From Brevundimonas vitisensis (lineage in GTDB: Bacteria; Pseudomonadota; Alphaproteobacteria; Caulobacterales; Caulobacteraceae): 64,000 bases of DNA. The stretch is taken from positions 1,574,501 to 1,638,500 of the forward strand of contig NZ_CP067977.1 in assembly GCF_016656965.1 (NCBI RefSeq). Reading direction: 5' to 3'. Every line of letters starts with the position of its first letter. Positions within the stretch are counted from its first letter, which is position 1. Positions 32,947 to 42,263 of the stretch are shown in pieces. A program made the position numbers and the translations under genes. The notes beneath the pieces are model-generated. The model had not been told where the DNA came from. It worked only from the letters and a program-made list of their open reading frames with translations, and did no database searches.

Positions 32947-34689
32947 ATGGCGTCTCCCCTTCGTCTCGTCCTGATGGCGGCCAGCGCCATGACGGTTGCC
33001 CTGACGGCGGCCGAGGCGACGCAGGCCCAGACGACCGGTGGACGGACCTCTACCGAATGGACCCTGGACACCGGCCATCCGCGCACGCCCGAGCAGCTGG
33101 CCATGCGGTTCGATGTGGCGGATCTGTCGATCAAGGTCATGCCGCAGACCCGCACGATCGAAGGTGTGGCGACCCTGACCTTCACCGCCGAGGCTCCTTT
33201 GGACCGGCTGGTGGTCGAGCTGGACACCGTCTTCGACGTGGCCTCCGTGTCGGTCGATGGCGTCGAAGTGCCCGCCGGGACCTGGACCAATCCCGAGGGC
33301 CGGATGACCATCCCCCTGGCCCGGCCGCTGGCAGCAGAAGAAACGACCCGGCTGCGCATCGCCTATTCGGGGGCCCCGCGCGTCGCCGTGAACGCCCCGT
33401 GGGACGGCGGCTTCGTCTGGTCCCGCGCGCCAGGAGGAAAGCCCTGGATCGCCACGGCGGTCCAGGGCGATGGCTGCGACCTGTTCTGGCCCTGTATCGA
33501 CCATCCCATGTCCGAGCCTGGACGGGTCGATCTGCACATCACCGTGCCCTCGGACCTTTCGGCGCCGTCCAACGGCCGGTTCCTGGGCAAGCAGGATCAC
33601 GGCGACGGCTGGACGACCTGGAACTGGACCGCGCGCGATCCGAACAACTATGCCATCGCCCTGACCGTCGGCCCCTATGTCGAGCTGACCGGCACCTATG
33701 AGAGCCGGTTCGGCAACACCATCCCCCTGCATTTCTGGCATTTGGACAGCGCCGATCCGGCCCGTGCCGCCGGTCTGTTCGCCGAGTTCAGCCAGCAGCT
33801 GGAATTCTATGAGCGGGTCATCGGCCCCTTCCCCTTTGCCGACGAGAAGATGGGGGTCGTCGAGACGCCGCACCTGGGCATGGAGCACCAGACGATCAAC
33901 GCCTATGGCAACGGCTACAAGAAGGACGACACCGGCTACGACTGGCTGCTGCACCATGAGCTGGCGCACGAATGGTTCGGCAACCAGATGACCAATGTCT
34001 CCTGGGACGACATGTGGCTGCACGAAGGGTTCGGCACCTATATGCAGCCGCTCTACACGCGCTACCTGAACGGCGAGCGGAACTTTCAGGCGACGATGAA
34101 TGAACAGCGGACGGCCCTGGTCAACCGCTACCCCGTCGTCTCCGGTCGTCCCCTGACCGAGGAGCAGGTCTATGAAGGAGACGTCGGGCCCGGAAACGAC
34201 ATCTATTACAAGGGCTCGCAGATCCTGCACACGCTGCGGCTGCTGATCGGGGACGCCGCCTTCTATGAGGCGACGCGGCGGCTGGTCTATGGACGGCCCG
34301 ACCCCCAGCCGGGCAATTTCGAGCCGCGCTTTGCCACGACCCAGGATTTCGTCACCATCGTGGAGCAGGTGACGGGGCGGGAAATGAGCTGGTTCTTCGA
34401 CGCCTATCTATATCAGGCGGCCCTGCCGGACCTGAAGACGACGCGGCAAGGGGATGTGCTGGCGCTGGAATGGGTGACGGGCAATGGCGGTCCCTTCCCC
34501 ATGCCGATCGAGGTCGAAGTCGACGGCCAGGTCACGACGCTCGCCATGACCGATAACCGCGGCACCCTGTCCGTCCCGGCGGATGCGCATGTCCTGATCG
34601 ACCCGATGAACAAGGTGCTGCGCCGCCTGGACGCCGTTGACGCCTATAACGCCTGGGTCGAGGAACAGCGCGCCCGCGCGCGGCGCTGA
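32947..34689 (+). CDS. Secreted M1-family aminopeptidase
   Basis: 580 residues. A signal peptide (cleavage near TQAQ, ~residue 28) is followed by the M1 beta domain. The exopeptidase motif is HLGMEHQTINAYG and the zinc site is HELAHEW (H337, H341) with the third ligand in DMWLHEGFGTY. It is shorter than PepN and belongs to the group lacking the large C-terminal helical domain. It removes N-terminal residues from peptides in the periplasm or outside. It stands alone, convergent with the transglutaminase-like gene. Confidence 0.9.
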   Translation: MASPLRLVLMAASAMTVALTAAEATQAQTTGGRTSTEWTLDTGHPRTPEQLAMRFDVADLSIKVMPQTRTIEGVATLTFTAEAPLDRLVVELDTVFDVASVSVDGVEVPAGTWTNPEGRMTIPLARPLAAEETTRLRIAYSGAPRVAVNAPWDGGFVWSRAPGGKPWIATAVQGDGCDLFWPCIDHPMSEPGRVDLHITVPSDLSAPSNGRFLGKQDHGDGWTTWNWTARDPNNYAIALTVGPYVELTGTYESRFGNTIPLHFWHLDSADPARAAGLFAEFSQQLEFYERVIGPFPFADEKMGVVETPHLGMEHQTINAYGNGYKKDDTGYDWLLHHELAHEWFGNQMTNVSWDDMWLHEGFGTYMQPLYTRYLNGERNFQATMNEQRTALVNRYPVVSGRPLTEEQVYEGDVGPGNDIYYKGSQILHTLRLLIGDAAFYEATRRLVYGRPDPQPGNFEPRFATTQDFVTIVEQVTGREMSWFFDAYLYQAALPDLKTTRQGDVLALEWVTGNGGPFPMPIEVEVDGQVTTLAMTDNRGTLSVPADAHVLIDPMNKVLRRLDAVDAYNAWVEEQRARARR

Positions 34690-34697
34690 GGCTGACG

Positions 34698-35471
34698 TCA
34701 GACCTCGGCGACCGTCACCTTCTGGCGCACCATCTGGCAGGCTCCGCCCGTCGACAGGAAGGCGATGTCGGCTGCGTCGCGTCCACAGGCAATGCGGACC
34801 AGTCCCTGGATTTTTGCCAGCCGGGTCGGATCGACCAGCCACCAGCCGTCGGACAGGAAGACCTCGAACACGGCGTGGAAATCCGGCGGATTGAGGCCGA
34901 AGGAATAGGCGCTCACCGCACGGGCAGGGATTCCTGAGGCCCGGCAGAGGGTGACGCCCAGATGCGTGAAATCGCGGCAGACACCGGCCCGGTCGATGAA
35001 GGTATGAACAGCGGTCGTCCCGGCATTCGACACGCCGTGGGTATAGTCGATGTGCTCGCTGATCCAGTCCAGGATGGCCAGGACCCGCTCTCCCCCGCGG
35101 CTGGCGCCGAACTGGCGCTCGACGAACCGGCCGAACTGATCCGAGGGGCAATAGCGGCTGGGCCACAGGAAGGTCAGGGCCTCGGCCGGCAGGTCGGTCC
35201 AGTCATGTTGAGAGGCCCCCGGCGGCAGGCCGATCAAGGTGCCGTTGTCGACCGTCGCCTCATAGGTCAGGGCTACCTCTCCCGTCAGACGCGCGCGCAA
35301 GGTGCGATAGCCGAACGGGCTGACGTCTTCCTTGAAGACCACCGGCGGGGTGGTGACGATCCGCTCGTCCAGCATCGACTGTCCCGGCCAGTGCGCGGCC
35401 TGGATCTGGAAGATGGCATCGGTCTCGGGACCGAATTGATAGACGAGGTCGCTGCGGACGCGGAGTTTCAA
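34698..35471 (-). CDS. Transglutaminase-like cysteine protease-fold protein (distal gene of the Anbu cluster)
   Basis: 257 residues. A ~130-residue N-terminal beta-rich part precedes a transglutaminase core with Cys in RAGVCRDFTH (C165), His in PPDFHAVFEV (H199) and Asp in LVDPTR (D214). Enzymes of this fold in bacteria mostly act as peptidases or amidases. It is cytosolic by sequence. No ATG fits; the start appears to be TTG at 35471 with a weak SD. It lies in the same orientation as the Anbu genes but is separated from anbu by an acyltransferase gene. Its substrate is unknown. Confidence 0.78.
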   Translation of the reverse strand: MKLRVRSDLVYQFGPETDAIFQIQAAHWPGQSMLDERIVTTPPVVFKEDVSPFGYRTLRARLTGEVALTYEATVDNGTLIGLPPGASQHDWTDLPAEALTFLWPSRYCPSDQFGRFVERQFGASRGGERVLAILDWISEHIDYTHGVSNAGTTAVHTFIDRAGVCRDFTHLGVTLCRASGIPARAVSAYSFGLNPPDFHAVFEVFLSDGWWLVDPTRLAKIQGLVRIACGRDAADIAFLSTGGACQMVRQKVTVAEV

Positions 35472-35623
35472 TCGGCACCAGAGGGCGTGAGGGACAGGAA
35501 GAAGATCAAGTCGGAATGCGATGAACCGGCTGCGCGATGGGCAACGCCCCGCGACCCTTTCGGCTCCCGCCTCGCGCGCTTAGGCCAGCGTCGCGTCCGA
35601 AATGAGACGCACCAAATCTGTTG

Positions 35624-36808
35624 CTACCCTGCGGGCGGCACCAGAAACCGGTCCGTTCGGCGAAACATCGCCGGCGAAAGGCCCTGAATTCTGGCTCCCA
35701 ACAGGTCGACCAGCCGTCGAAATGCTTTTTGGAGACTCTTCTCAGGAGCCAGACAGATCGCAAAGGAGAGCAGGGTGACACCGATCATGCCGGCCATGAG
35801 CGCCGCAACGGGCCAGGGAGCCAAGGCCTGCATCAGCAAGGCTCCGACGACCGAATGCAGCAGATAAAGCGGATAGGTCGCCAGCCCGATGGCCCGGCTC
35901 AGATCAGCACGCCGAGGTGTCCAGATCAGATCATTATAACGCAGGGACCCGATCATCAGGGTGATCGAGACAAGCCAGACGGCCATGGCGACGAAGGGCG
36001 GAGACGCCATTTCATACACCTGACGCTCCAGGCCGACCCTGTAGATTTCGATCAGCCCTGCCAGTACCGCCACGACCAACATGGCGGCATGAACCGGTGT
36101 CAGGACACCGCGACGGACCCACATCCACATCATCCCGCCGATCGCGAAGAACACGCCGTGCTCGAAAAGACCAAGCCGGCTGATCAGCGTGGGCACGCCC
36201 TCGACGGCCTGCGGCCAGACCAGCCACGCGACCCAGTACGCAGCGCTGATAGCGGCTAGAGCATAGAAGAGCCGGTGCGCCGATCGAAACCCGTTGGCAC
36301 AGAGCGTCACGAGAACTACGGCGTAAAACGCCATCTCGACCCCGAGCGTCCAGTAGACGCCATCCACCCACGGTCCCGTCGGTATCAAGATCATCGTCCG
36401 AACATAGCGGACCACCAGCTCGTTCAACCCATAGAGGCCCGCAACAGCAAGGGCACAGGCGCTGATGGAGGCGCAGATCCAAGCGCCCGGATAAAGGCGC
36501 ACCAACCGTGATCTTGCAAAGGAGAATGGGCTCGATCCGTCCGCCGAATAGGCGATGACGAGACCAGAGAGCACAAAGAAAATCTCGACGCCGACCCAGC
36601 CGAATGCCGTTACCGGCGCTGCGGCCTCGAACCGGAGCCCGTCAATCAGGAGGCCGGACGTGGAATCGGACTTGGCCCAGCTGAGATAGGCCAGGTGATA
36701 GACCATGACCATGAAGGCGGCGGCGAAACGGATAATATCCAGGCCCACCACGCCTCTGCGATGGCTGCCGTCGGCATCCGCGTTCGCACCCACCTGCGTC
36801 TCAGCCAT
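35624..36808 (-). CDS. Acyltransferase-3 (OafA/NodX-like) membrane protein
   Basis: 394 residues with about ten TM segments. The N-terminal block GLDIIRFAAAFMVMVYHLAYL has the conserved acyl-donor His, and GVEIFFVLSGLVIAYS follows; both are hallmarks of acyltransferase 3. These enzymes O-acetylate or succinylate exported polysaccharides or lipids at the inner membrane. The ATG at 36808 is preceded by a G-rich SD; a TTG start 11 codons earlier is less likely. It splits the Anbu cluster and has visibly lower GC in places (58-65% in three sampled lines), so it may be a later insertion. Confidence 0.82.
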   Translation of the reverse strand: MAETQVGANADADGSHRRGVVGLDIIRFAAAFMVMVYHLAYLSWAKSDSTSGLLIDGLRFEAAAPVTAFGWVGVEIFFVLSGLVIAYSADGSSPFSFARSRLVRLYPGAWICASISACALAVAGLYGLNELVVRYVRTMILIPTGPWVDGVYWTLGVEMAFYAVVLVTLCANGFRSAHRLFYALAAISAAYWVAWLVWPQAVEGVPTLISRLGLFEHGVFFAIGGMMWMWVRRGVLTPVHAAMLVVAVLAGLIEIYRVGLERQVYEMASPPFVAMAVWLVSITLMIGSLRYNDLIWTPRRADLSRAIGLATYPLYLLHSVVGALLMQALAPWPVAALMAGMIGVTLLSFAICLAPEKSLQKAFRRLVDLLGARIQGLSPAMFRRTDRFLVPPAG

Positions 36809-36878
36809 GTCGCTTGTCCCCCGTCTCCGCGATAGCGCCAAGGCTGGTCCGGGCGCAAGCGCCTACCAAGCGGTGGAA

Positions 36879-37643
36879 TCAGGCGACAGCCGTCACCGGG
36901 CTTCGGCCTTGCAGCCAGGGCGGGGGTGGCATGGCGCGGTGGGCTTCGGCCAGAGCCTCGGACCAGCGGCGTCCCAGCTCGCGGAAATAGGGGTCGTCGG
37001 CCTCGATCCGGCGCTGCTGACCGCAAAGGCCGTCGCGCGGGATGACGATCATGTCGAACGGGGGCCCGACCGCGATATTGGACCGGATGGTTGAATCGAA
37101 CGAGATCAGGCCCAGCTTGACGGCCTCGGCCATGGGCGTTTCGGGCCGCAGGGCGCGGTCCAGGATGGGCTTGCCGTATTTCAGCTCACCGATCTGAAGA
37201 TACGGCGTATCCGCCCCGCATTCGATGAAATTGCCCTGGGCGTAGATCAGGTACAGCCGCAGCTTGCCGCCCTGGACCTGGCCTCCCATCAGCATGCTGG
37301 CGCTGAGTTTCAGGCTGTCGGCTTCCAGTGAGGGCAGCAGGTCGTGGCGCACCTGGGCCAGCGCATGACCGACCAGTTGCGCCGCGCGGAACATGGTGGG
37401 GGCGGTATGCAGCGTTTCGACGGTGTCGCTGCCCGGCATCTGCACGCCCTTGGCCACCATCGACAGCGCCATCTGGGTGACCGACAGGTTCCCGGCCGTA
37501 GCGATGGCAATGACCCGGTCGCCCGGCACCTCGGTCACATGCAGCTTTTTGTAGGACGAGATGTTGTCCACGCCCGCATTGGTGCGCGTGTCGGCAATCA
37601 TCGCCAGACCGTCATTCACCAGCATGCCTACGCAATAGGTCAA
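36879..37643 (-). CDS. Anbu, proteasome beta-subunit homologue (bacterial proteasome-like peptidase)
   Basis: 254 residues. Translation from TTG at 37643 gives MTYCVGML; after Met removal Thr is residue 1, Asp of SDTRT-like ADTRTNAG is exactly residue 17, and Lys 31/32 matches the proteasome Lys. All three catalytic parts of an Ntn hydrolase are thus present without a propeptide. GGAGG lies nine bases before the TTG. A GTG ten codons upstream would bury the Thr. Anbu proteins form open-ring or helical oligomers; their substrate is unknown. The gene follows transglutaminase, alpha-E and ATP-grasp genes on the same strand. Confidence 0.9.
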   Translation of the reverse strand: MTYCVGMLVNDGLAMIADTRTNAGVDNISSYKKLHVTEVPGDRVIAIATAGNLSVTQMALSMVAKGVQMPGSDTVETLHTAPTMFRAAQLVGHALAQVRHDLLPSLEADSLKLSASMLMGGQVQGGKLRLYLIYAQGNFIECGADTPYLQIGELKYGKPILDRALRPETPMAEAVKLGLISFDSTIRSNIAVGPPFDMIVIPRDGLCGQQRRIEADDPYFRELGRRWSEALAEAHRAMPPPPWLQGRSPVTAVA

Positions 37644-37704
37644 GTCACCCGACCTCCGTCCCCCAGACGACACGCGACGCTAGCAGATTCGAGCGTCATG
37701 GCGA

Positions 37705-38547
37705 TCACGACCATCCCATTCTCTGCTGTTGCTGCTGAGTCTGTTGCATTCGGCGCACGACAAGCCGGACCGACAGACTCTCGCGGCCGCCGCCATAGCT
37801 GGTGCCCCTGATCGGAGCGGCACCCAGATAGTCCGGCCCCGTCGCGATACGGACATAGGCCTCGGTCGGAGAGACGCCATTGGCCGGATCGAAGCCGACC
37901 CAACCCAGATTCTCGACATAGGCTTCGGCCCAGGCATGTCCGGCGTCCTGGTTTTCCTGACCGTCCGATCGCCACAGGTGCCCCGAGACATAGCGCGCCG
38001 GGACGCCGATCAGACGGGCGCAGGCGATGAAGATCTGGGCATGGTCCTGGCAGACGCCCCGTCCCAGGGCAAAGGCCCTGGCCGCCGTGTGGCTGGAATC
38101 GGTGGCACCGATCTCGAACATGACCCGCTCGCCGATCGCGCCCATCAACCGGTGCAGCCGGTCCAGAGATGTCCCCTGGCCCGCTGCGGCGACGGCAAAG
38201 TCACGCAGGGCCTCGTCGGCCTGGGTCAGGGGCGTTTCGCGCAGGAAGACCAGAGGCGAAAGCCGCTCTCGAACCCCGCGCAGGACCCCGCCCGTATCGG
38301 CGGTGACGACCTCGCCCGTCACCCGAATGGTCAGGGCAGCGGCGGGCGATTCCGTATAAAGATTATGGACGATATTGCCGAAGCCGTCCTCGGATCGACG
38401 CAGCCGGGCGTCCACATCGGTCTCTATGCGCCAGTCGCGGACCTGTTGTCCGTCGGTCGAGCGCGGCGTCAGCCGCAGCGACTGAATGATGAACCGTGCC
38501 GGATGGGCATAGTCGTATCGCGTGGCGTGATCGATCCGGATGCGCAC
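37705..38547 (-). CDS. Transglutaminase-like protein of the Anbu/alpha-E operon
   Basis: 280 residues. The N-terminal Bact_transglu_N-type domain starts MRIRIDHATRYDYAHPARF. The core has Cys in GRGVCQDHAQ (C166), His in DAGHAWAEAY (H204) and Asp in WVGFDPANG (D220). The tail is Gln-rich (MQQTQQQQQRM). It starts at GTG (38547), one base after the alpha-E stop, so translation is coupled. It is probably a cytosolic peptidase or amide-bond enzyme acting on the product of the ATP-grasp partner; that link is inference from gene order. Confidence 0.88.
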   Translation of the reverse strand: MRIRIDHATRYDYAHPARFIIQSLRLTPRSTDGQQVRDWRIETDVDARLRRSEDGFGNIVHNLYTESPAAALTIRVTGEVVTADTGGVLRGVRERLSPLVFLRETPLTQADEALRDFAVAAAGQGTSLDRLHRLMGAIGERVMFEIGATDSSHTAARAFALGRGVCQDHAQIFIACARLIGVPARYVSGHLWRSDGQENQDAGHAWAEAYVENLGWVGFDPANGVSPTEAYVRIATGPDYLGAAPIRGTSYGGGRESLSVRLVVRRMQQTQQQQQRMGWS

Positions 38548-38548
38548 G

Positions 38549-39490
38549 CTACACCAGATACTGGTCGTGGACGGCGGCAGCCAGGGCGTTGTTTTCCTTT
38601 AGGAATTTCTGGATGTACTCGTGCAGACCCGATTGGAAGATGTCTTCGATCCGCGCCTCGTTGAACTCGGTCAGGCGGCTCGATGCCAATCGCTGAGCCG
38701 GTCCGCGCCGGTTGTAGTCGGCCGCCAGCCGTTCCAGATAGCTGACGATCATCCCCTGACAGCTGGCCAGTGAGCGCGGCATCTGCCGGTTCAGCACCAG
38801 CAGATCGGCCACCAGCCAGGGCCGCACCGATTCCCGATACACCCAGCGATAGGCCGTCAGCGCCGACACCTCGCGCAGCAGGGTGGTCCACTGGAAATAG
38901 TCCAGCTGGCCGCCCACCCGTTCGCCGGGCGGCAGCAGCAGGTGATATTTCACGTCCAGCAGCCGCGCCGTATTGTCGGCCCGCTCGATCGCCGCCCCCA
39001 GGCGCAGGAACCAGTAGGCGTCGTTACGCAGCATGGTCCGCGACGAGGCCCCCTCGACGGCCAGGGAGACCCCCTTGACCCACTCCAGGAAGCGCACGAA
39101 GTCGTCGCGCTTGCCCGGCTTGCCGAAGTCGGCCAGGCCGTTCCAGGCCCCGTTGATGGCTTCCCACAACTCGACCGTGAGAGCGGTGCGGACAGACCGC
39201 GCATTGGTCCGCGCCTTGATCAGGCAGGCCTGAATCGACGATCCGTTGTCGGGCGAGAACGCCAGATACTCCCGCACCGACGCCTCGGTCGGTCGGCCCC
39301 GCCCGGATGCGGCAAAGGCACCGCCCGCCCCGGCAGAGGCCAGGGCACCGGCCCAGGCGGAAGCCGCCGCGTCCTCGCCCGCTGGCAAGGTCGCCAGACG
39401 CAGGGCTGCCTCCAGGATGCGCGCGACAAAGTCGGCACGCTCCATATAGCGACCCGTCCAGTACAGGCTGTCGGCGGTACGCGAGAGCAT
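38549..39490 (-). CDS. Alpha-E domain protein
   Basis: 313 residues, almost all predicted helix. It opens MLSRTADSLYWTGRYMERADFVARILE, the signature of the alpha-E domain, and ends with QKFLKENNALAAAVHDQYLV. The family is always found beside circularly permuted ATP-grasp and transglutaminase genes and has been proposed as part of a peptide-synthesising or peptide-tagging system; its biochemical role is unproven. It starts at ATG (39490), 12 bases after the ATP-grasp stop, and is one base from the next gene. Confidence 0.9.
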   Translation of the reverse strand: MLSRTADSLYWTGRYMERADFVARILEAALRLATLPAGEDAAASAWAGALASAGAGGAFAASGRGRPTEASVREYLAFSPDNGSSIQACLIKARTNARSVRTALTVELWEAINGAWNGLADFGKPGKRDDFVRFLEWVKGVSLAVEGASSRTMLRNDAYWFLRLGAAIERADNTARLLDVKYHLLLPPGERVGGQLDYFQWTTLLREVSALTAYRWVYRESVRPWLVADLLVLNRQMPRSLASCQGMIVSYLERLAADYNRRGPAQRLASSRLTEFNEARIEDIFQSGLHEYIQKFLKENNALAAAVHDQYLV

Positions 39491-39502
39491 CAGACAGCCA
39501 CC

Positions 39503-40924
39503 TCAGTCATCCAGCACCCAGGTGTCCTTCGTGCCCCCGCCCTGGCTGGAGTTGACCACCAGGGACCCAGCCTTCAAGGCGACGCGCGTCAGGCCGCCGG
39601 GCGTCACCCGCACGCCTGCCGGGCTTGTCAGAACGAACGGGCGCAGATCGACATGCCGGGGCTGCAGAGTGCCGCCGTCCAGCGTGGGGGCGGTCGACAG
39701 GCTGAGCGTCGGCTGGGCGATGAACTCCTCGGGGTGCGCGATCAGCTTGGCGCGGAAGGTCTCGATCTCGGCCTTGGTCGCCGCCGGTCCCACCAGCATG
39801 CCATAGCCGCCCGATCCCCCGACCTCCTTGACCACCAGTTGGTCCAGTTGCCCCAGAACCTCCTTCAACGCTTCCGGCTCGCGACAGCGCCAGGTCGGGA
39901 TGTTCTTCAGGATCGGCTCCTCGCCGGTGAAGAAACGCACGATCTCGGGCATGTAGGTGTAGACGCATTTGTCGTCCGCGACCCCTGTGCCCACCGCATT
40001 GGCCAGGGTGACATTGCCCGCCAGATAGGCCGCCATCAGTCCAGGGACCCCCACCGCCGAATCCGGGCGGAAGGTCAGGGGATCGATGAAATCGTCGTCG
40101 ATGCGGCGATAGATGACATCGACCTTCTGGGGACCTTCGGTCGTGCGCATGAAGACGGTGTCGTCATTGACGAACAGATCCGTCCCCTCGACCAGTTCCA
40201 CACCCAGTTTGTCCGCCAGGAAGGAATGCTCGTAATAGGCAGAGTTGAACGGACCGGGGGTCAGAACCACGATCCGGGGATCGTCACCGGCACTGCCCGG
40301 CGCGCCCGACTGCAGCGTCCGCAGAAGGGTGTCGGTATAGGTATCGACCGGGTGGATGCGATGCTCGGCGAACAGGTCGGGGAACAGCCGCATCATCATC
40401 TCGCGGTTCTCCAGCATGTAGGAGACGCCGGAGGGCGTGCGCGCATTGTCTTCCAGGACCTGAAAACCATCCTCGCCCGTGCGGACCAGATCGATGCCGG
40501 CGATGTGGCACCAGACATCCCCCGGGGGACGGCGACCCTGCATCTCGGGGCGGTATTGCGGATTGGTCAGGACGATGTCGGCCGGGATGACGCCGGCGCG
40601 GATACATTCCTGAGGTCCATAGATATCCTTCAGAAAGGCATTCAGCGCCCCGACCCGCTGCTTCAGGCCGCGTTCCAGAAGACGCCACTCATTGGCCGCG
40701 ATGATGCGGGGCACGACATCGAACGGGATCAGCCGCTCGTTGGATTCCGCATCGCCATAGACGGCAAAGGTGACACCCATCCGCCGAAAGAACAGCTCGG
40801 CCTGGCGAGAGCGCGATGACAGCAGATCCGCAGGCGCAGCCTTCAGCCATCGGTCCAGCGTCCGATAGCTTTCGCGGACCTCGCCCGCGCCCATTCCTGA
40901 CATCTCGTCGAACGTGATGTGCAA
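39503..40924 (-). CDS. Circularly permuted type-2 ATP-grasp protein
   Basis: 473 residues. Conserved blocks are MGVTFAVYGDAESNERLIPFDVVPR, the DNARTPSGVSYMLENR motif, and the permuted nucleotide-binding VVKEVGGSGGYGMLVGP near residue 365. ATP-grasp enzymes join a carboxylate to an amine or thiol through an acyl-phosphate, so this is the likely ligase of the cluster. No ATG precedes the conserved start; TTG at 40924 fits, with ATG at 40903 as a shorter option. It is the first gene of the operon and divergent from the his operon. Confidence 0.88.
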   Translation of the reverse strand: MHITFDEMSGMGAGEVRESYRTLDRWLKAAPADLLSSRSRQAELFFRRMGVTFAVYGDAESNERLIPFDVVPRIIAANEWRLLERGLKQRVGALNAFLKDIYGPQECIRAGVIPADIVLTNPQYRPEMQGRRPPGDVWCHIAGIDLVRTGEDGFQVLEDNARTPSGVSYMLENREMMMRLFPDLFAEHRIHPVDTYTDTLLRTLQSGAPGSAGDDPRIVVLTPGPFNSAYYEHSFLADKLGVELVEGTDLFVNDDTVFMRTTEGPQKVDVIYRRIDDDFIDPLTFRPDSAVGVPGLMAAYLAGNVTLANAVGTGVADDKCVYTYMPEIVRFFTGEEPILKNIPTWRCREPEALKEVLGQLDQLVVKEVGGSGGYGMLVGPAATKAEIETFRAKLIAHPEEFIAQPTLSLSTAPTLDGGTLQPRHVDLRPFVLTSPAGVRVTPGGLTRVALKAGSLVVNSSQGGGTKDTWVLDD

Positions 40925-41381: not shown

Positions 41382-42263
41382 ATGAGTACCGTTCAGGGGC
41401 GACTGCGTATCGCCGTCCAGAAATCCGGCCGCCTGGCCGACCGCAGCCTCGATCTGGTCCGCGATGCGGGCCTGCGGGTCATCAAGGGCAACAACGACCT
41501 GCTGTATCGGGTCGAGAACTATCCGATCGACCTGCTGCGCGTCCGCGATGACGACATTCCCACCTTTGTCGCCGATGGAGTCTGCGACCTGGGCATCGTC
41601 GGCGAGAATGTACTGGAGGAAGGCAAGAACGGCGGTACCAACGCCGAGGTGGTCATGCCGCTGGGCTTTGGGCGCTGCACGCTGAAACTGGCTGTGCCGC
41701 CGACGCTGGACTATGCTGGCCCTGCCTCCCTGGACGGCAAGCGGATCGCCACTTCCTATCCGCGGATCCTTCGCCGCTACCTGGACCAGCAGGGCGTGGC
41801 CGCCGACATCGTAGTCATGCGCGGTGCGGTCGAGGTGGCCCCCCGGCTGAAGCTCGCTTCCGCCATCTGTGACCTGGTCTCGACCGGGGCCACGCTGGAG
41901 GCCAACGGCCTGGATGCCAAGGAGACGGTGTTCGAAAGCCAAGCGGTGCTGATCCGTTCGCCGTCCGGGCCCGAGCCCGCCCTGGCGCACCTGCTGGAAA
42001 GCATTGTCGAGCGGATCAGCGGCGTGGTGTCCTCCCAGGGGGCCAAATACGTGATGCTGAATGCGCCCCGAAGCGCCCTGGACCAGATCACCGCCATCCT
42101 GCCCGGCGCCGGATCGCCCACCGTCATGCCGCTGATGGGCCGCGACGACGCCGTGGCCGTCCACGCGGTCTGTCAGGAGGCGGTTTTCTGGGAAACTCTG
42201 GAAAAACTGAAGGCGGCGGGCGCTTCGGCCATCCTCGTCCTCCCAATCGAGAAGATGATGTGA
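41382..42263 (+). CDS. hisG: ATP phosphoribosyltransferase (long form)
   Basis: 293 residues, the long HisG with a C-terminal ACT-like regulatory domain. Key blocks are VQKSGRL, LGIVGENVL, and DLVSTGATLEANGL, the PRPP-binding loop. The C-terminal part (GRDDAVAVHAVCQEAVFWETLEKLKAAGASAILVLPIEKMM) is the feedback domain, so no HisZ is needed. It catalyses the first step, joining ATP and PRPP. It overlaps hisD by one base (TGATG). Confidence 0.95.
   Translation: MSTVQGRLRIAVQKSGRLADRSLDLVRDAGLRVIKGNNDLLYRVENYPIDLLRVRDDDIPTFVADGVCDLGIVGENVLEEGKNGGTNAEVVMPLGFGRCTLKLAVPPTLDYAGPASLDGKRIATSYPRILRRYLDQQGVAADIVVMRGAVEVAPRLKLASAICDLVSTGATLEANGLDAKETVFESQAVLIRSPSGPEPALAHLLESIVERISGVVSSQGAKYVMLNAPRSALDQITAILPGAGSPTVMPLMGRDDAVAVHAVCQEAVFWETLEKLKAAGASAILVLPIEKMM

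Follow-up and report, generated by a model that had tools for sequence, protein, structure and literature searches.

The window analyzed here is a 64,000-nucleotide (nt) stretch of contig NZ_CP067977.1 of Brevundimonas vitisensis (positions 1,574,501 to 1,638,500; source genome, 2.98 Mb), and it carries a run of minus-strand genes built around Anbu (Table 1). Anbu, a relative of the proteasome, is widespread and has solved structures; we know of no substrate or job for it. Genes for an ATP-grasp protein, the alpha-E protein, a first transglutaminase-fold protein (TG1), and Anbu follow one another in this order on one strand, with intergenic gaps of 12, 1, and 61 nt; on the basis of gene order and gaps, we assign positions 36879–40924 to the canonical Anbu operon. 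The measured gaps agree with the spacing of one to about 60 bases given in a preliminary description of this DNA, which was also right about the known association of the ATP-grasp, alpha-E, transglutaminase, and Anbu families. Its five family assignments were borne out by Pfam matches, but its count of five minus-strand genes was not: there are six, an acyltransferase-3 gene between Anbu and a second transglutaminase-fold protein (TG2) having been overlooked. The operon has long been known, being reportedly attributed to Valas and Bourne in 2008 and Iyer in 2009, and its proteins have already been studied; the window adds one more genome to those that carry it. More unusual is TG2, a gene that is usually located elsewhere and was found almost exclusively in genomes with Anbu.

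Table 1. Genes of the Anbu–TG2 locus and its flanks, in window coordinates
Gene	Position	Strand	Description	Match (E-value)
M1 peptidase	32947..34689	+	Convergent with TG2, beside which it usually lies in the genus	PF01433 (6.8e-21)
TG2	34698..35471	-	Second transglutaminase-fold protein, 3isr-like; Cys165-His199-Asp214	PF01841 (2.4e-20); PF21295 slightly under cut-off
Acyltransferase-3	35624..36808	-	Between Anbu and TG2	PF01757 (1.6e-26)
Anbu	36879..37643	-	TTG start, then Thr1	PF00227 (9e-7); 5loy (3.1e-82)
TG1	37705..38547	-	Core transglutaminase-fold protein; Cys166-His204-Asp220	PF08379 (2e-21); PF01841 (1.9e-20)
Alpha-E	38549..39490	-	All-helical; two conserved Glu-Arg motifs	PF04168 (1.7e-89)
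ATP-grasp	39503..40924	-	Circularly permuted type 2 amidoligase, first core gene; start codon uncertain, TTG at 40924	PF14403 (2.6e-168)
hisG	41382..42263	+	Frequent neighbour of Anbu operons	PF01634 (1e-49)

The order ATP-grasp, alpha-E, TG1, Anbu was kept in 68 of 80 related Anbu loci taken from genome contigs, some of which end soon after Anbu; one locus with a frameshifted TG1 (L017) is counted among the 68. The other 12, in part truncated at contig ends, comprised seven without ATP-grasp, three without TG1, one with TG1 and Anbu, and one with Anbu alone. In L071, alpha-E and TG1 lie more than 8 kb away from Anbu. The clustering of the four core genes is far beyond chance. The preliminary description spoke of a complete five-gene system, which is not upheld: judged by gene content, the conserved unit comprises four genes, and a TG2 homologue adjoins Anbu in only two of the 80 loci (L024, same strand, 65% identical; L078, other strand, 34% identical). 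Within the genus, Anbu is present in 57 of 91 genomes and alpha-E in 56, and the operon is ordinary there; hisG lies within about 5 kb of it in 15 of the 80 loci. Median core gaps are approximately 0, 3, and 71 nt (67–68 loci), and 16 of 203 gaps exceed 90 nt (7/68, 2/68, and 7/67 at the successive junctions). By these lengths the core has hardly any room for an additional tag gene, and the search did not extend to tags encoded outside it; with gaps mostly too short for an extra gene, any gene-encoded tag is probably located elsewhere. Excerpts of two reports describe the same four genes, order, and catalytic residues for Yersinia bercovieri and other Anbu operons, which, like the window's operon, include no AAA+ gene (PMC5666114, PMC6376114).

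The active sites of the core proteins are intact. Anbu starts with TTG at 37643 (window:37641-37643), which has GGAGG 9 nt upstream and a Thr codon next to it, so that Thr directly follows the initiator. Unlike the window's Anbu, its 80 relatives start with ATG (74) or GTG (6) and none with TTG; Thr comes next in all 80. Thr1, Asp17, Arg19, and Lys32 were kept in 81/81 aligned Anbus, the window's own counted, and the latter also has Lys31, in agreement with the earlier claim of a proteasome beta homologue with all catalytic residues in place. With both the catalytic residues and the operon order conserved, the core observation of the preliminary description therefore stands. Five sequences named Anbu or Peptidase were found as solved relatives, the nearest being 5loy. 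Other Anbus form open-ring particles in solution, according to excerpts of PMC5666114 and PMC6376114.

The ATP-grasp protein matches the PF14403 profile over positions 1–374 of 374. R273, R274, D276, D277, K366, D426, R428, and N458 are present in 72/72 sequences, and E158 and N160 in 71/72, with one gap; we take K366, D276, D277, and D426 to serve the ATP site. The nearest solved structure is 3n6x (E 1.3e-187), which is named a putative glutathionylspermidine synthase. Alpha-E covers positions 1–294 of 294 of PF04168, with E169/R170 in 78/79 (one gap), and its AlphaFold2 model, whose alignment left out L039 (unknown residues) and L071 (partial), is all helical with a mean predicted local distance difference test (pLDDT) score of 90.3. 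No sequence in the PDB matched alpha-E at E up to 1, and no fold matched it significantly; neither result shows a novel fold. In one relative, the two domains that are encoded by separate genes in the window (PF14403 and PF04168) form a single protein of 810 amino acids (L248:1456-3888), which argues that ATP-grasp and alpha-E act as a pair. In the survey of Alphaproteobacteria described below, 22 alpha-E matches lie in open frames of 798–1018 amino acids, the fusion having been checked in L248 only, and genomes with two alpha-E matches often carry one of them in a long frame. The triad of TG1 is conserved as well (Cys in 75/77; His and Asp each in 76/77). In the alignment alone, its nucleophile Cys aligns with Tyr in L055 and with Ser in L078, and these two operons may encode an inactive TG1.

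TG2 has an invariant C165/H199/D214 triad (12/12). Its sole solved relative found, matched over nearly the full length, is 3isr (E 4.2e-58), a transglutaminase-like putative cysteine protease. Among 16 genus TG2 loci, a convergent M1 peptidase gene directly adjoins TG2 in 12 and is separated from it by one intervening gene in one, while in three (L104–L106) TG2 stands directly behind Anbu, both being on one strand; these three genomes are not monophyletic on the rpoB tree. The window joins both neighbourhoods, namely hisG with the operon, and TG2 with the M1 peptidase and a DUF3617 gene, and it differs from known Anbu operons in having a genus-unique acyltransferase and TG2 behind Anbu. Judged by position, TG2 is rejected as part of the conserved operon, given the 2/80 loci and its home in the M1 peptidase neighbourhood. 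The preliminary description counted TG2 in the system because of its adjacency; co-occurrence bears out the functional membership, but adjacency fails as the reason, since TG2 has a separate conserved neighbourhood.

In the genus, TG2 was found in 56 of 91 genomes; a 30% match in G052, located at its TG1, was not scored as TG2. Anbu and TG2 occur together in 53 genomes and are both missing in 31, with Anbu only in four and TG2 only in three, and the two genes mostly lie on separate contigs or at distances of tens of kb or more. An rpoB tree was built for 74 of the 91 genomes (17 without usable rpoB were left out: 14 with no match, three with cut matches), and the tests were run on the 67 that are at least 90% complete, leaving out seven. 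These 67 comprise 39 with both genes, three with Anbu only, none with TG2 only, and 25 with neither. On the tree of 74 genomes, those without Anbu fall into several separate groups, and among them TG2 is present in G025 only. On the 67 genomes, a four-state dependent model was favoured over the independent one (likelihood ratio 31.0, p 3e-6, 4 degrees of freedom): TG2 was fitted with a loss rate of 403 without Anbu, at the allowed bound, versus 0.3 with Anbu, and the loss rate of Anbu itself was nearly constant (3.5 and 3.8). When TG2 was simulated as evolving alone, the maximum concordance in 5000 runs was 58, versus the observed 64/67. Five genomes have a divergent Anbu (44–45% identical) and yet keep TG2 at 66–69% identity, which ties TG2 to the presence of an Anbu operon and not to a particular Anbu lineage. 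TG2 thus probably belongs to the Anbu system by evolutionary dependence and not by adjacency.

We also examined the M1 peptidase loci themselves. TG2 lies between the M1 peptidase and an HNH-type frame, N1, in 6/16 TG2 loci, with 2.1 kb between TG2 and N1 in L097. At 15 M1 loci of Anbu-less genomes, the M1 peptidase abuts N1 at 29–48 nt in three (G081, G073, G031), a clean site at the place that TG2 occupies in Anbu-bearing genomes, and the gap is 663–678 nt in G077 and G010 and approximately 2–2.7 kb in G089 and G088; N1 was not found within the stretch in the other eight. A decayed TG2 was sought at 17 TG2-less M1 loci, these 15 and two from Anbu-bearing genomes (G024, G074), and was rejected, the best among the matches listed for four TG2 queries in tblastn having E 0.12.

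The association extends beyond the genus. We surveyed 144 Alphaproteobacteria, a search set at least 90% complete, with profile cut-offs of E 1e-25 for TG2 and E 1e-20 for Anbu and with statistics that ignore kinship. Matches to TG2, Anbu, and alpha-E were present in 24, 46, and 58 genomes, respectively. All 24 TG2-bearing genomes, from 19 families, carry Anbu, and 23 of them carry alpha-E (G216 does not). Outside the genus, Anbu is present in 22/22 TG2-bearing genomes (Fisher 6e-14). In these 22, TG2 is at least approximately 188 kb from any Anbu match or on another contig, and the nearest alpha-E match to TG2 is 37 kb away (G229, a second TG2 match and an 829-amino-acid frame); many of these genomes are drafts, in which linkage over contig ends is possible. 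Among alpha-E-bearing genomes, TG2 occurs in 23 of the 45 with Anbu versus 0 of the 13 without it (p 7e-4).

On balance, we lean slightly toward a two-locus Anbu system in Alphaproteobacteria, in which the usually unlinked, 3isr-like TG2 would act only downstream of the operon and would be lost with it. TG2 would be useless without Anbu and thus disappear along with it, while the operon in some species manages without TG2. For the window itself, it is an evenly balanced proposition that the canonical operon and TG2 serve the same pathway, in which an amide made by ATP-grasp/alpha-E would be handled by the transglutaminases and Anbu. This proposal draws on the identity and order of the genes, the intact active sites, the ATP-grasp/alpha-E fusion in a relative, and the Anbu-dependent presence of TG2, and from these we infer all chemical steps and their order. 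Physically partnered by alpha-E, the ATP-grasp protein would spend ATP to form an amide bond on a peptide or protein; excerpts of PMC6376114 report that the Yersinia bercovieri ATP-grasp protein frees phosphate from ATP. TG1, joined by TG2 in TG2-bearing species, would hydrolyse or transfer that amide via its Cys-His-Asp triad, and Anbu, as an N-terminal-threonine hydrolase, would remove or degrade the product. TG2 would act downstream of the operon. If the two-locus reading is true, TG2 is a component outside the operon that provides a new genetic entry to Anbu function and a handle on the missing product. Among the literature matches listed, we found no report of an unlinked, Anbu-dependent transglutaminase; Iyer 2009 may discuss one, and priority is left open.

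Several points weigh against this proposal. The link has exceptions: Anbu stands without TG2 in four genus genomes (G013, G024, G052, G074), and TG2 without Anbu in three (G025, 70% complete; G040, 77%; G078, 95%), G078 and G040 being outside the tree. Of the 46 Anbu-bearing genomes in the class survey, 22 lack a TG2 match at E 1e-25, which would make TG2 an optional partner. The tree is a midpoint-rooted single-gene tree with weak nodes, and one fitted rate lies at its bound. Hydrolase and transferase roles of TG1 and TG2 are not separable by sequence, and to our knowledge no substrate, tag, or product of the Anbu system has been reported. Excerpts of PMC6376114 state that standard proteasome substrates were not cut by Anbu, with no peptidase activity, and that a specific complex among the operon proteins was not detected. 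Co-expression with operon proteins yielded no other form of Anbu, according to excerpts of PMC5666114. The tag-and-cleave cycle, which the preliminary description had itself offered as inferred, is still hypothetical.

A possible, less probable reading is that the operon both synthesizes and turns over a small molecule, a non-ribosomal peptide or an amide metabolite, and not a protein tag, comparable to glutathionylspermidine synthetase/amidase, with TG1 and TG2 as amidases and Anbu as a salvage hydrolase. The name of the nearest solved ATP-grasp structure, 3n6x, points in this direction, as do the core gaps that hardly fit a tag gene and the failure of Anbu to cleave proteasome substrates in the excerpts of PMC6376114. 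However, one metabolite would hardly seem to call for two cysteine-type enzymes and an Anbu particle of many subunits, a tag gene could lie elsewhere, and no such metabolite is known.

We consider it unlikely that the TG2–Anbu association reflects only shared ancestry and genome size, with a TG2 function unrelated to Anbu. TG2 is indeed unlinked to Anbu in most genomes, and larger genomes are richer in everything; as a control, PF01757 itself was enriched with Anbu, which is present in 31 of 68 genomes with PF01757 versus 15 of 76 without it (p 0.001). This enrichment is weaker than that of TG2, and genome size or lifestyle is a real background that leaves the 24/24 over 19 families unexplained. 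When the alpha-E-bearing genomes are restricted to those of 3.2 Mb or more, TG2 occurs in 20/39 with Anbu versus 0/6 without it (p 0.027). The several separate Anbu-less groups of the rpoB tree, which except for G025 also lack TG2, the correlated-evolution test, and the simulation likewise argue against shared ancestry and size as the sole cause.

A similarly doubtful reading dispenses with a dedicated conjugate: Anbu would be a general peptidase used under nitrogen limitation, and its operon partners would recycle amino acids. Anbu is upregulated in nitrogen-limited Pseudomonas putida, as cited second-hand in excerpts of PMC5666114 and PMC6376114; this reading leaves the four-gene order, the ATP-grasp/alpha-E fusion, and the Anbu-dependent loss of TG2 unexplained.

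The acyltransferase-3 gene is set 70 nt from Anbu and 152 nt from TG2. At E 1e-40 it has a match in one of 91 genus genomes, the window's own, which makes a recent arrival the probable reading; we reject the gene as a component of the system. The window's genome has at least ten PF01757 matches at E 1e-20, the most among the matches listed for the 144 class genomes, suggesting that the family has expanded there. That the six minus-strand genes form a single functional operon, whose acyltransferase acylates the same product, is thus highly improbable: the common strand and short distances speak for it, but the other 90 genus genomes have no match at E 1e-40 and the family is expanded in this genome.

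The Pup-proteasome system (PafA/Dop) likewise places ATP-driven amide-bond ligation beside a proteasome relative, its ligase being glutamine-synthetase-like. The likeness to the window lies in this general idea; unlike the Pup-proteasome, the window has an ATP-grasp ligase and no AAA+ ring gene in the operon, and no Pup-like gene was seen in its core. The Rlo and Rim systems of Pseudomonas also combine an ATP-grasp protein with a peptidase, and rlo further encodes a transglutaminase-fold protein; they differ in having aspartic peptidases instead of Anbu, and the Rlo transglutaminase is membrane-bound and inactive, according to excerpts of PMC12239564. In those excerpts, the text on Rlo and Rim makes no mention of alpha-E or Anbu.

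We made further observations on relatives of these genes. In L213, L221, and L222, a TG1-type gene (24–26% identical to TG1) and a TG2-type gene stand in tandem, 15–31 nt apart, away from the Anbu operon. A divergent form of Anbu (profile E approximately 1e-42 to 1e-48), which keeps Thr1, Asp17, and Lys in the alignment, is transcribed divergently from clpS-clpA in six of nine fetched loci from Alphaproteobacteria (L230, L232, L234, L235, L236, L237). In five of these six a phasin-type gene lies between, and in five of six a D,D-carboxypeptidase S11 gene lies on the other side. In G227 (L225:5518-9337), TG2 itself is divergent from clpS-clpA, where the divergent Anbu sits in G118 of the same family. 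As a bolder extension, the Anbu pathway might touch N-degron/Clp proteolysis, via the divergent Anbu and, once, TG2 beside clpS-clpA. Elsewhere in the window, a 499-amino-acid frame (window:43575-45074) has an aminotransferase class I/II stretch at its N terminus in addition to a HisB (IGPD) domain, and is perhaps a HisC-HisB fusion.

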